From an uncultured Coriobacteriaceae bacterium (GTDB lineage Bacteria > Actinomycetota > Coriobacteriia > Coriobacteriales > Atopobiaceae): a DNA stretch of 64,000 nucleotides. The notes beneath the pieces are model-generated. The model was not told the DNA's origin, ran no database searches, and saw only the letters and a program-made list of their open reading frames with translations. The stretch lies in contig CADAQM010000002.1 in the NCBI GenBank assembly GCA_902790135.1, positions 1 through 64,000 on the forward strand. Reading direction: 5' to 3'. How positions within the stretch are numbered: the first letter of the stretch is position 1; the number at the start of each line of letters is the position of its first letter. Shown piece by piece: positions 11,071 to 38,153 of this stretch. The translations under genes and the position numbers were made by a program.

Positions 11071-11089
11071 CAAACACATGTTCTATAAT
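11071..11089 (+). promoter_or_regulatory. dinB promoter -10 with LexA box
   Basis: CAAACACATGTTCT (11071-11084) matches the Gram-positive LexA consensus CGAAC-N4-GTTCG at most fixed positions and abuts a perfect TATAAT -10 (11084-11089). The -35 region is poor, as expected for a damage-inducible promoter. Confidence 0.65.
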
Positions 11090-11119: not shown

Positions 11120-12397
11120 ATGGACACCACGCGGGCCATACTACATGTCGACATGAACTGCTTCTACGCGAGCGTCGAGATGGCAGAGCGTCCCGAGCTG
11201 CGTGGTCGCCCCGTCATAGTCGGGGGAGACGAGGAGAGCCGTCATGGCATCGTGCTCACGGCCAGCTATCCCGCCAAGCGCCGCGGGGTCAAGACGGGCT
11301 CTGCTTTGTGGCAGGCACGTCAGGCCTGCCCGGACGCCATCATCGTCCCGCCACGCTACTGGCTCTATATGCGCTATTCCCGCCTCGCGCGCGACATCTA
11401 CTACCAGTACACCGACCTCGTGGAACCCTTTGGCCTTGATGAGGCCTGGCTCGACGTCACCGCCTCCGCGCACCTGCAGGGAGGGGATGCCCTGCTCATT
11501 GCCCGCGACATCTCGGAGCGCGTGCTCATGGAGCTGGGGGTCACCGTGTCGGTTGGGGTCAGCTGGAACAAGATCTTCGCCAAGTTTGGCAGCGACTACG
11601 ACAAGCCCAACGGTCTCACGGTCATCACACCCTACAACGCCCAGGAGGTGGTGTGGCCGGCAAAGGTAAAGGACCTGCTCTATATTGGCCCTGCCACGGC
11701 GCGCAAGCTCAACCAGCTGGGCATCTTCACCATAGGGGATCTCGCCTGCGCAGATGACGAGCTCATCCGGCGCAGGCTGGGCAAGATGGGGGCAGTGGTG
11801 CAGGGCTTCGCACGCGGGCAGGACGACTCTCCCGTGCGCCCGCTCTGTCCCGCGTCCCATGACATCGCCCACGAGGTGAAGGGGGTGGGCAACGGGATAA
11901 CCTGTCCCTTCGACCTCGAGGACGAGACTAGCGCCCGCCAGGTGATATGGCTGATGGGGGAGTCGGTTGCCCAGCGCCTGCGCGCACAAGGTCTGGCCGC
12001 GCGCACGATCGCCGCCTCCGGACGCGACTTTAACACGCTGGCCTCGCGCAGTCGGCAGACGACGCTCCCGCGGCCCACCCAACTCACCAGCGAGATCTGC
12101 TCCACGGCTGCCGAGCTGCTCATATCCGACTGGGACTTTGCCCATGGCGAGAAGCTGCGTGGCCTTGGGGTGCATGCGTCCAACCTCTCACCCGCACAAA
12201 GCGCCGTGCAGCTTGACCTCTGGGGCGTCGAGAGCCGCCGCCAGCGCATGCTCGCGCTGGACAAGACCATCGACGAGCTGCGCTTTCGCTACGGAAACCA
12301 TGCCGTGAGACGCCTGTCTGAGCTCTGCGACCCACGCCTGTCAACGCTTGACCCACAGCGCGACAACGTGGTGCACCCGGTAAGCTTCTTCGCATGA
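11120..12397 (+). CDS. dinB: DNA polymerase IV (Y-family translesion polymerase)
   Basis: A 425-residue error-prone polymerase that copies across damaged templates. The catalytic carboxylates appear in ILHVDMNCFYASVE (motif I) and in EPFGLDEAWLD (motif III, adjacent D and E). The steric-gate/finger region SYPAKRRGV, the palm VSVGVSWNKIFAKFGSDYDKP and the HhH thumb (KVKDLLYIGPATARKLNQLGI) follow in the usual order, with a little-finger domain at about 250-370. The final 50 residues are less conserved and no clear beta-clamp motif was identified. ATG 11120 has AAGGGG upstream; an in-frame ATG at 11078 lies inside the LexA/-10 element and is rejected. Likely SOS-induced. Confidence 0.95.
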   Translation: MDTTRAILHVDMNCFYASVEMAERPELRGRPVIVGGDEESRHGIVLTASYPAKRRGVKTGSALWQARQACPDAIIVPPRYWLYMRYSRLARDIYYQYTDLVEPFGLDEAWLDVTASAHLQGGDALLIARDISERVLMELGVTVSVGVSWNKIFAKFGSDYDKPNGLTVITPYNAQEVVWPAKVKDLLYIGPATARKLNQLGIFTIGDLACADDELIRRRLGKMGAVVQGFARGQDDSPVRPLCPASHDIAHEVKGVGNGITCPFDLEDETSARQVIWLMGESVAQRLRAQGLAARTIAASGRDFNTLASRSRQTTLPRPTQLTSEICSTAAELLISDWDFAHGEKLRGLGVHASNLSPAQSAVQLDLWGVESRRQRMLALDKTIDELRFRYGNHAVRRLSELCDPRLSTLDPQRDNVVHPVSFFA

Positions 12398-26216: not shown

Positions 26217-26672
26217 CTACTGCGAGACGCCGCTCGAGCCAAAGCCGCCAGCGCCACGATCGGTTTCGTCAAGCTCAGTAACCTCAACCAGCTTGACTAC
26301 GGGAACCTTCTGGATGACAAGCTGTGCGATACGATCCCCGCGCTTGACCTCAATGGTGTGGGTTGGATCGAAGTTGATGGCGCAGATCTTTAGCTCACCC
26401 CGATAATGGGCATCAATGAGGCCGGGAGTGTTGGCCATCGAGAGGCCCTGCTTGAGGGCCAGGCCACTGCGCGGCTGGACGAATCCCGCATAGCCCTCGG
26501 GAATAGCGATCGCTAGCCCCGTCGAGATGAGCCTGCGCTCAAAGGGCTTGAGGCTTACATCCTCGGCCGAGCGAAGATCGAGACCGGCATCCCCCTCATA
26601 TGCGTAGCCTGGAATCTCTACGTCGGGATCGATGCGTTTGATGGGAACGGCTATGGTGTCGGATTCAATCAC
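26217..26672 (-). CDS. dut: dUTP diphosphatase
   Basis: A 151-residue homotrimeric dUTPase that hydrolyses dUTP to dUMP. Conserved motifs appear in order: AGLDLRSAE (motif 1), QPRSGLALKQG (2), GLIDAHYRGELK (3), RGDRIAQLVIQ (4) and the glycine-rich tail RGAGGFGSSG (5). The start at 26672 overlaps the nrdR stop by 4 bp (ATGA), so it is translationally coupled to nrdR; both concern deoxynucleotide supply. Confidence 0.96.
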   Translation of the reverse strand: MIESDTIAVPIKRIDPDVEIPGYAYEGDAGLDLRSAEDVSLKPFERRLISTGLAIAIPEGYAGFVQPRSGLALKQGLSMANTPGLIDAHYRGELKICAINFDPTHTIEVKRGDRIAQLVIQKVPVVKLVEVTELDETDRGAGGFGSSGVSQ

Positions 26673-27115
26673 ATTAGGCTCCGTAGCTCTTCGCTGAACT
26701 CGTCGATATCTTTGAAGTCGCGGTACACGGAGGCAAATCGCACGTAGGCTACCTTGTCCACGTCAATCAATTGTTGGAGAACCATCTTGCCGAGCTCCTC
26801 AGACGAGACCTCTGTGATGCCGCGGTCGCGCAGCTCGCTCTCGATAGAGCTGATCAGCGCCTCGAGCTCGTCGATGTGCATGTTGCGCTTGACGGTAGCG
26901 GTCAGAAGGCCACGCATGATCTTGGACCTGTCGAAGGTCTCCTTGCGCCCATCACGCTTTACGACCATGAGAGGCATGTCCTCGCGCCTCTCATAGGTGG
27001 TAAAGCGACAACCACATCTGATGCACTCACGACGACGCCTGATGGCATCGTTGTTCTCTGAAGGACGAGAATCCACAACCTTTGATTCGTCACATCCACA
27101 TTTTGGGCAGCGCAT
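26669..27115 (-). CDS. nrdR: Transcriptional repressor NrdR
   Basis: A 148-residue zinc-ribbon plus ATP-cone repressor of ribonucleotide reductase operons. The N-terminal zinc ribbon is MRCPKCGCDESKVVDSR to CIRCGCRFTTYERRE. The ATP-cone (VVKRDGRKETFDRSKIMRGLL) senses dATP/ATP. ATG 27115 has GGGAGAG 5-8 bases upstream; an in-frame start at 27148 would extend past the conserved MRCP start and is rejected. First gene of the nrdR-dut pair. No nrd genes lie in the window. Confidence 0.96.
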   Translation of the reverse strand: MRCPKCGCDESKVVDSRPSENNDAIRRRRECIRCGCRFTTYERREDMPLMVVKRDGRKETFDRSKIMRGLLTATVKRNMHIDELEALISSIESELRDRGITEVSSEELGKMVLQQLIDVDKVAYVRFASVYRDFKDIDEFSEELRSLM

Positions 27116-27265
27116 TTCTCTCCCTTGATACCTTGTTTCGCATAGCAATCAGCAGCTGTATGAACATAGCCACTTCCACTCGTTAACACTCGCAAAAAGT
27201 ATAGCTAGTTTAACAACCGTCTAGACACTCTTTAAAACAAATTATCAGCACTTTTGAAAGAAATG

Positions 27266-27673
27266 CTACTTACCAGCCTTGGGCACTACGAGCTTTATGC
27301 CAGTAGCCAAATACGAGCTCTCGAGGTTATTTGACTCGCAGATGTGATTGGCCACCTGCTGCGTGGTGCAGCCACTCACCGGATGGGCCTCAGCGATGCT
27401 CCAGAGGGAGTCGCCGCTGACAACCGTGATCGTCTCATACGAGGAAGCATCGAAGGCGCTCTGCAGGCGAGCCTCGGTTGAGAGGTCGGTATAGAGCCAC
27501 GTTCCAGCAAACACGACAAGCGACACCAGGGCAATGACGACAACACAAAGCACGTCGCAGCGCCGAGCCTGAGGACGATTGAGCCCGCCCTCGATGACCT
27601 TGAACTTGGGGCGATCGTAGGCCAGGGCAACGGAGGCATCGTTGGGCATGGTGCTGCAGGCGTTGGTTTGCAT
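27266..27673 (-). CDS. LysM-domain membrane protein, probable SOS division inhibitor (YneA-like)
   Basis: A 135-residue protein with a cytoplasmic N-terminus of about 40 residues, one membrane helix (VLCVVVIALVSLVVFAGTWLY, near residues 41-61) and an extracellular LysM domain (ETITVVSGDSLWSIAEAHP... LATGIKLVVP). Size, topology and its position divergent to lexA match YneA/DivS-type proteins that delay division during DNA damage; the family link is inference. A LexA box lies in its promoter spacer (27771-27784). GAGAGGAGC precedes ATG 27673. Confidence 0.8.
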   Translation of the reverse strand: MQTNACSTMPNDASVALAYDRPKFKVIEGGLNRPQARRCDVLCVVVIALVSLVVFAGTWLYTDLSTEARLQSAFDASSYETITVVSGDSLWSIAEAHPVSGCTTQQVANHICESNNLESSYLATGIKLVVPKAGK

Positions 27674-27736
27674 GTGTTAGCTCCTCTCGCGTGTGTGCCT
27701 GTTCTAGTTTTAGAGGACGCCAAGGACAATAATTGG

Positions 27737-27766
27737 TTGCCAAATCAGAACGTGCGTACTATACTA
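27737..27766 (+). promoter_or_regulatory. lexA promoter with LexA box
   Basis: TTGCCA (27737-27742), 17-bp spacer, TATACT (27760-27765). GAACGTGCGTAC (27748-27759), one base off GAAC-N4-GTTC, lies inside the spacer, consistent with autoregulation. A further weaker match AGAACATTTGTTTG is at 27798-27811. Confidence 0.6.
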
Positions 27767-27789
27767 ACCTCAAACAATTGTTCGGTCAA
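27761..27789 (-). promoter_or_regulatory. LysM-gene promoter with LexA box
   Basis: On the minus strand TTGACC (27789-27784), a 17-bp spacer and TAGTAT (27766-27761). CGAACAATTGTTTG (27784-27771) fills the spacer and matches GAAC-N4-GTTC at all but one position. Confidence 0.65.
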
Positions 27790-27837
27790 CACTTTTTAGA
27801 ACATTTGTTTGTTCTTTCCAACACCCGAGGAGGGGCA

Positions 27838-28494
27838 ATGGCACGCGACAAGCTCAGCAAGCGCCAAATGGCCATCTACGAGTACATCTGCACGTACACC
27901 AAGGAGAAGGGCTACCCGCCCTCTGTGCGTGAGATTGGCGCAGCGGTTGGTCTCGCGTCACCATCTACGGTTCACATGCATCTCAAGGTGCTGCAGGAGC
28001 GCGGCTTCATCAAGCGCGACTCCAAGAAGCCTCGCACAATCGAGGTCGTCTCTCACGAGTCCTCGGAGTCCCCTGAGCAGCCCAAGGTGGTCTCCCCCAC
28101 CGAGGACGTCGCCTCCAACGAGATGCACTTGCCTTTGGTCGGCCGCGTGGCTGCCGGTATGCCTATCCTTGCCGAGCAGAACGTAGAGGAGACCCTCACG
28201 CTTCCCACCAGCATCGTGGGTGACGCCAGCTCCTTCATCCTTCGCGTGCGTGGCGAGTCCATGATCAACGCTGGCATCTATGACGGCGACTACATCGTCG
28301 TCAAGGAGCAGGACGACGCCCATGACGGCGAGATTGTCGTCGCGCTCATGGATGATTCCGCTACCGTCAAGACCTTCTATCGCGAGCGTGACCGCATTCG
28401 CCTGCAGCCCGAGAACGACACCATGGATCCCATCTACGTCACCAACCCGACCATCCTCGGTCGCGTAACAGCGCTCATCAGGTCCATCTCGTAG
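27838..28494 (+). CDS. lexA: LexA repressor
   Basis: The 218-residue SOS repressor. An N-terminal winged helix (KLSKRQMAIYEYICTYTKEKGYPPSVREIGAAVGLASPSTVHMHL) binds DNA. The C-terminal latent protease has the self-cleavage site A106-G107 in VGRVAAGMP, catalytic S141 in RGESMINAGI and K178 in DSATVKTFY. ATG 27838 has GAGGAGGGG just ahead; upstream in-frame starts would run through the LexA boxes and are rejected. RecA, encoded at 36983-38095, stimulates its cleavage. Confidence 0.97.
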   Translation: MARDKLSKRQMAIYEYICTYTKEKGYPPSVREIGAAVGLASPSTVHMHLKVLQERGFIKRDSKKPRTIEVVSHESSESPEQPKVVSPTEDVASNEMHLPLVGRVAAGMPILAEQNVEETLTLPTSIVGDASSFILRVRGESMINAGIYDGDYIVVKEQDDAHDGEIVVALMDDSATVKTFYRERDRIRLQPENDTMDPIYVTNPTILGRVTALIRSIS

Positions 28495-28497
28495 CCG

Positions 28498-29286
28498 ATG
28501 GTTTGCACGACTTCCCAAACACAACAGTCAGACCTGCCATCCGCTTCTTCTGAGCGGATGGCTGTCTTTGACGTGGTGAGGGGCTTTTCGGTCATATCGA
28601 TGGTCCTCTTCCACTTCTGCTACGACCTGCGCTTCATCTATGGTTATGACCTTGACTTCTTCAAGCCGCCATTCCAAGACGTATGGCGGTCGTCCATCTC
28701 CTGGACGTTCCTGTTCATAGCTGGTTGCATGTGTTCGTTCTCGCGCAACGGCTACAAGAGGGCGTTGCGCTATCTAGCTGCCGCCGCGGCCGTGTTCGTA
28801 GTCACCACCATAGTCGCCGTCGATGTACCCATCAGCTTTGGGATCATCTTCTGCATGGGTGCCAGTACGCTCATCGAGAGTTTTCTCGCCAATCATGGCG
28901 TGGTGCTCAAGGGGCTTCCCGCAGCGGCATTGCTCTTTGTGGCCTTCATCGCGCTTCAGGGAATAACGCGAGGTTACATCGGCATCGGTTCCCTTGTCTT
29001 GCATCTGCCGCGCGAACTCTATGCCACGCCCTACCTTTCTTTTCTGGGCTTTCCCGGTGGTGGATTTGCGTCGGGGGACTACTACCCCATTCTCCCCTAC
29101 ACATTGATGTTCTTGGTAGGCACAAGCGTTGGGCGCTACTGGAAGGAGACGGGCTATCCGTCCTTCTTCTCCAAGGTAGACTGCAAGCCGCTTGCCTTTG
29201 TCGGTCGCCATGCGCTACCGGTGTACCTGGCTCACCAGCCCTTGCTCATAGGGGTTTGTGAGCTCTTGGAGCTACTGGGTAATTAG
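28498..29286 (+). CDS. DUF1624 / heparan-alpha-glucosaminide N-acetyltransferase-like membrane protein
   Basis: A 262-residue integral membrane protein with about seven helices. The opening VFDVVRGFSVISMVLFHFCYDL is the signature of the DUF1624/HGSNAT acyltransferase-like family, including the catalytic-type His. The function in bacteria is presumed acyl transfer to a cell-surface molecule. It starts 3 bp after the lexA stop, so reinitiation is possible; an in-frame ATG at 28558 sits at the edge of a 9-bp hairpin (28537-28561) and is an alternative start. No strong Shine-Dalgarno supports either. Confidence 0.8.
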   Translation: MVCTTSQTQQSDLPSASSERMAVFDVVRGFSVISMVLFHFCYDLRFIYGYDLDFFKPPFQDVWRSSISWTFLFIAGCMCSFSRNGYKRALRYLAAAAAVFVVTTIVAVDVPISFGIIFCMGASTLIESFLANHGVVLKGLPAAALLFVAFIALQGITRGYIGIGSLVLHLPRELYATPYLSFLGFPGGGFASGDYYPILPYTLMFLVGTSVGRYWKETGYPSFFSKVDCKPLAFVGRHALPVYLAHQPLLIGVCELLELLGN

Positions 29287-36982: not shown

Positions 36983-38095
<1,113 letters not shown>

Positions 38096-38124: not shown

Positions 38125-38153
38125 AGCATACAGAACAACCGTTCGTATGTCAA
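38125..38153 (-). promoter_or_regulatory. recA promoter with LexA box
   Basis: On the minus strand TTGACA (38153-38148), a 17-bp spacer and TATGCT (38130-38125). CGAACGGTTGTTCT (38145-38132) inside the spacer is a full GAAC-N4-GTTC match, so LexA binding would block polymerase. Confidence 0.85.

Follow-up and report, generated by a model that had tools for sequence, protein, structure and literature searches.

A putative LexA-repressed bidirectional promoter and a candidate membrane-helix division inhibitor divergent from lexA in the Coriobacteriia

How the small proteins of the bacterial SOS response stop cell division is unsettled: YneA of Bacillus subtilis needs its LysM domain, the LysM domain of ChiZ is reported to be dispensable, and SidA consists of 29 residues. 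The locus described here, in which lexA and the gene for a small LysM protein point away from each other, raises the question of whether the small protein is an SOS division inhibitor under the control of LexA and, if so, which of its parts is likely to act. The whole stretch of DNA that was analysed, 64 kb in length, is referred to below as the window. Within it, lexA (27838-28494, plus strand) encodes a protein of 218 residues which scores 221.5 bits against TIGR00498 (cut-off 110.95), matches the Pfam models LexA_DNA_bind and Peptidase_S24 and, when its sequence is read against known LexA, keeps the self-cleavage residues Ala106-Gly107, Ser141 and Lys178. The divergent gene (27266-27673, minus strand) encodes a protein of 135 residues, and its ATG is preceded by a Shine-Dalgarno-like GGAG.

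A consensus scan of positions 26900-28600 detects exactly two sigma-70-type promoters, one for each of these genes. The lexA promoter (27737-27765, plus strand) is composed of TTGCCA at 27737-27742 and TATACT at 27760-27765, separated by 17 bp, while that of the divergent gene (27761-27789, minus strand) is composed of TTGACC at 27789-27784 and TAGTAT at 27766-27761, again separated by 17 bp. Three LexA boxes, each of which departs from GAAC-N4-GTTC at one position, are associated with this pair: box 1, GAACGTGCGTAC (27748-27759, plus strand), lies within the spacer of the lexA promoter; box 2, GAACAATTGTTT (27772-27783, minus strand), lies within the spacer of the divergent-gene promoter and at the predicted lexA start site; and box 3, GAACATTTGTTT (27799-27810, plus strand), lies upstream of the divergent -35 and within the predicted lexA leader. 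A sequence-only reading of this DNA had proposed both promoters, each with a LexA box in its spacer, and the bases are as it claimed; its two boxes stand, but the third, which falls within the range that it described, was not listed. It also overlooked that the -10 region is common to both promoters. The two -10 elements overlap with a 1-bp offset in the string TATACTA, and the promoters are therefore placed face to face on one -10, with predicted start sites at approximately 27772 for lexA and 27754 for the divergent gene, 18 bp apart if 7 bp are assumed between each -10 and its start.

Because one-mismatch boxes are not enriched across the 64-kb window (17 found compared to 22.6 expected), the significance of these boxes was assessed from their clustering and conservation instead of from counts. 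Three boxes within 75 bp were produced in only 1 of 300 simulated 64-kb windows, so the cluster at lexA is unusual. Conservation was evaluated in a sample of 140 lexA loci across the Coriobacteriia, which was assembled from whole-genome searches and fetched regions. Relatives with names assign the window to the Atopobiaceae, in the order Coriobacteriales. At least two boxes are present in the 300 bp upstream of lexA at 137 of the 140 loci and at least three at 117, and at 115 a divergent -35 lies directly beyond a LexA box and is accompanied by a -10 at the proper spacing. The prediction in the sequence-only reading that LexA controls both lexA and the divergent gene is strongly supported by this conservation.

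The layout in which both spacers hold a box and the -10 is shared has a narrower distribution. A first version of the test for it, in which the -35 had to match at four of six positions, detected the layout at merely 4 of the 33 loci of family f2; since the -35 of f2 reads TTGC(G/A)T, the test was rerun with TTG as the requirement, for the background as well as for the loci. Under this rule the layout is found at all 8 loci of the window's clade, at 4 further loci of family f1 and at 25 of the 33 f2 loci, compared to none of 7000 randomised sequences. It is not universal, because most other f1 genera, f3-f10 and the other orders in the 140-locus comparison fail the same test; in many of the other f1 loci, inspection of the sequences suggests a probable lexA promoter downstream of box 3. 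The LexA boxes and the divergent promoter thus extend through the class, and the rule used here detects the shared -10 in two lineages. In a subclade placed in one genus (L034, L036, L039, L041 and L043), a pair of boxes with 22-32 bp spacing is absent and several members carry two boxes just 14 bp apart, an altered spacing which indicates that the promoter architecture has changed within the genus.

Boxes of the same type are found at other genes that an SOS regulon would be expected to contain. One, GAACAACCGTTC (38133-38144), lies upstream of recA (36983-38095, minus strand), whose product scores 545.7 bits against TIGR02012, and its 12 bases are identical in three relatives (G014, G015 and G020). 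Another, AAACACATGTTC (11072-11083), is situated just upstream of dinB (11120-12397, plus strand), the product of which matches DNA polymerase IV models, and a further box of this type occurs outside the window, just upstream of a gene whose sequence reads as uvrA. An ordinary SOS regulon fits these positions. Two additional observations were made in genome G000. A perfect box, GAACAAATGTTC, is present at about position 1556 of L082 (contig 23), approximately 190 bases upstream of the gene for a small protein that looks like a HicA toxin, which raises the possibility of an SOS-linked toxin-antitoxin pair. Counted across the whole of this genome, GAACNNNNGTTY has 29 occurrences per strand, compared to about 190-204 for the reversed control pattern; avoidance of LexA-like sites is possible, and codon usage could explain the scarcity as well.

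The protein encoded opposite lexA can be divided into an N-terminal tail of about 37 residues that is predicted to be cytosolic, one membrane helix (38-76, linker included) and a LysM domain (78-132). The Pfam LysM model (PF01476) matches residues 82-131 with 29.5 bits, above its gathering cut-off of 20.9, and an AlphaFold model (mean pLDDT 85.6) displays the helix at 38-76 followed by the strand-helix-helix-strand layout of a LysM domain at 78-132, so the single membrane helix plus LysM that had been claimed for this protein is confirmed. The best Foldseek matches of the model are LysM domains, none of them below an E-value of 0.001, which the small size of the domain may explain. No catalytic domain was found in the 135 residues with Pfam or NCBIfam.

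The proposed equivalence to YneA holds in part. The top NCBIfam match is YneA (E = 1.2e-12), and the arrangement beside lexA agrees, but the score of 47.6 bits misses the curated cut-off of 60 bits for the equivalog (NF010723), which was exceeded in none of the nine genomes examined. Each of the 32 LysM proteins aligned from f1 and f10 is nonetheless recognised by the YneA model, a coverage that no other family reaches, and the Gly-Asp-Ser/Thr residues of the LysM domain are nearly invariant among the aligned members. The gene also has the features of the class of lexA-linked single-helix division inhibitors of Gram-positives, which comprises YneA, ChiZ, DivS and SosA (PMC6851548): it adjoins lexA divergently, has LexA boxes in its promoter and encodes a single membrane helix. 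Taken together, membership of this class, the matches to the YneA model and the retention of the LysM residues make a YneA-like SOS division inhibitor of this lineage the best reading of the protein.

The LysM domain is not, however, the conserved core of the divergent protein, because sister families lack it. The gene encodes a helix and a LysM domain in f1, f3, f10 and most other orders, while in f2, f4, f6, f8, f9 and part of f5 the protein usually ends at a C-terminal helix, with the gene remaining beneath a LexA-boxed promoter. A search of five LysM-less f2 genomes revealed no YneA-type LysM protein elsewhere, Pfam and NCBIfam gave no credible match to the LysM-less proteins, and confidence in a structural model of this form is low except in the helices (pLDDT 64.9). 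In a quick LexA tree, drawn open, the LysM-less families fall together (47 rows, support 93). LysM is present both in their sister group and among the outgroup orders, which fits a single loss; since some outgroup loci encode helix-only proteins of 36-43 residues, the shrinking has probably happened more than once. Judged from these sequences, LysM is dispensable in the evolution of the gene. At three loci (L140, L169 and L175) no divergent membrane gene was found between lexA and nrdR, and these are apparent complete losses. A motif is common to the cytosolic tails: with a matrix derived from f2 (xG[ST]xAL), 36 of 58 f1 tails reach a score of 8 or more, compared to 1.2 among shuffled tails, and no tail from the other orders does. 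The window protein carries a weakened version, DASVAL.

These truncations bear on the possibility that the protein is mainly a peptidoglycan remodeller, which adjusts the wall on SOS induction and arrests division as a side effect. LysM is a wall-binding module, and ChiZ, which is also encoded beside lexA, has been reported as a wall hydrolase (PMC6851548, PMC3989709). Since the 135 residues hold no detectable catalytic domain, sister families retain a regulated gene that encodes no LysM, and the extreme form described next, a helix of 23 residues, is unlikely to be an enzyme, we judge a primary role in remodelling improbable.

The shortest form is found in g55, a genus of f2, where a single-helix frame of 23 codons (for instance MARYEFPIAFALSTIASFVIFFA) follows AGGAG-type sites and stands under the LexA-boxed divergent promoter at L119, L121, L125, L167 and L257-L265. 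The frame is too short for usual gene calling. Four f2 loci had at one stage appeared to have no divergent gene; this appearance was produced by a 30-codon minimum, and the 23-codon frame was seen when the loci were read. Its length is equal in all nine g55 genomes, and the synonymous share of its codon differences is 0.57, compared to 0.17 for randomly placed changes; because the pairwise counts from which these shares are derived are mutually non-independent, the difference is a strong indication and not a formal test. On this basis the frame appears to be selected as a protein. Its helix scores 13.2 against the f2 helices, compared to 10.5 for shuffled sequences (s.d. 0.6), and with this modest signal common descent with the longer f2 proteins is likely.

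The g55 loci also bear on whether the boxes serve only the autoregulation of lexA, with the divergent gene as a neighbour whose promoter overlaps by chance. Autoregulation of lexA is universal as far as is known, and no box at this locus falls outside the promoter and leader of lexA; a chance overlap is nevertheless very unlikely in view of the 115 of 140 loci that place the divergent -35 immediately past a box, with its -10 properly spaced, and of the persistence of the divergent promoter in g55, where the gene is merely 23 codons long.

The genes further downstream must be considered in the same way. Next after the divergent gene, in the window and in the loci of most relatives, is nrdR (26669-27112, minus strand; TIGR00244, 184 bits), which overlaps dut by 4 bases on the same strand as the divergent gene (26217-27112 for the two together). 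No strong terminator or promoter was found in the window between the divergent gene, nrdR and dut, the only strong terminator of this run being located after dut, and the SOS transcript may extend to dNTP control. That SOS control of nrdR and dut, and hence nucleotide supply, is the conserved purpose of the promoter and the small protein a passenger would accord with this gene order and this lack of internal signals, and is made highly improbable by the protein-level selection indicated for the 23-codon frame, the tail motif and the LysM residues.

The explanation that we consider probable is that a LexA-repressed bidirectional promoter drives lexA together with a membrane protein whose helix is the effector that blocks division. 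In an undamaged cell, LexA dimers would sit on the three boxes and occlude the shared -10 from both sides. DNA damage would give rise to RecA filaments, which would promote the self-cleavage of LexA, so that lexA and the divergent gene would be derepressed together. The small bitopic protein would insert with its N-terminal tail inside and its LysM domain outside, and the membrane helix would bring it to the divisome, where the synthesis of septal wall would be blocked until LexA recovers. Since every form found retains the helix and no other part is shared by all of them, we infer an action inside the membrane on the divisome; the helix would be the effector, as it is with SidA, which targets FtsW in Caulobacter (PMC4211646), and with the YneA helix, which binds FtsW TM7 (PMC13396833). 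The LysM domain, as an amplifier, and the cytosolic tail would be accessories, gained or lost by individual lineages. An effector that consists of the helix alone is not a general rule, because the B. subtilis YneA helix without LysM localises and fails to block division (PMC13396833).

A more extended form of this proposal, which we regard as evenly poised between true and false, is that the Coriobacteriia possess one lineage of SOS inhibitors with an essential membrane helix, of which the LysM form, the tail-anchored G[ST]xAL form and the 23-residue form would be variants, combined with competition at the shared -10. In the window's clade and in f2, where the divergent gene shares its -10 with lexA, resynthesis of the repressor and division arrest would then compete for one polymerase site. 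In the bidirectional promoters of Escherichia coli, polymerases compete only under strong transcription (PMC12825309).

Comparison with known systems indicates which of these features are familiar. The window protein resembles B. subtilis YneA in its divergence from lexA, its LexA boxes, its one helix followed by a LysM domain predicted to be external, and its conserved Gly-Asp-Ser/Thr, within which lie D46 and T47, residues that YneA needs (PMC13396833). It differs in a cytosolic tail of about 37 residues bearing a lineage motif, in its score of 47.6 of the 60 bits and, unlike YneA, which needs LysM, in belonging to a group whose sister families have lost that domain. No literature on LexA sites at yneA was retrieved from the library searched. 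ChiZ (Rv2719c) of mycobacteria and DivS of Corynebacterium are likewise actinobacterial single-helix proteins encoded next to lexA, and both are damage-induced division inhibitors, the LysM of ChiZ being reported as dispensable and DivS having none (PMC3989709, PMC6851548); in a comparison made by description, no domain corresponding to the reported hydrolase activity of ChiZ was found in the 135 residues. SosA of Staphylococcus aureus resembles the sister-family forms in being divergent from lexA, with a single helix and no LysM, but it has 77 residues with an extracellular C-terminal part, (PMC6851548), while in the Coriobacteriia the LysM-less forms stop at the helix. SidA, an SOS-induced microprotein which, like the g55 form, is helix only (PMC4211646), comes from an unrelated bacterial group, and the g55 form, unlike SidA, lies opposite lexA under the kind of promoter that its longer relatives have. 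The shared -10 and the predicted starts 18 bp apart match E. coli bidirectional promoters, for which 18 bp is the commonest start-site distance, with the difference that a repressor box is present in each spacer here; LexA is not mentioned in that study (PMC12825309). This kind of inhibitor is therefore known; new, as far as we have checked, are the -10 shared by two promoters whose spacers each hold a box, the loss of LysM and the 23-residue form.

In the library searched, no paper combined LexA with Eggerthella lenta, and the two that linked LexA, SOS and Coriobacteriia dealt with other topics, which suggests that the SOS response of these gut bacteria has received little study. The conserved shared -10 flanked by repressor boxes provides a clean case for the question of how a bidirectional promoter splits its output, and the natural truncations at this one locus, in which regulation and helix are kept and LysM is dropped, along with almost all the rest in one genus, provide material for testing which part of the protein acts.
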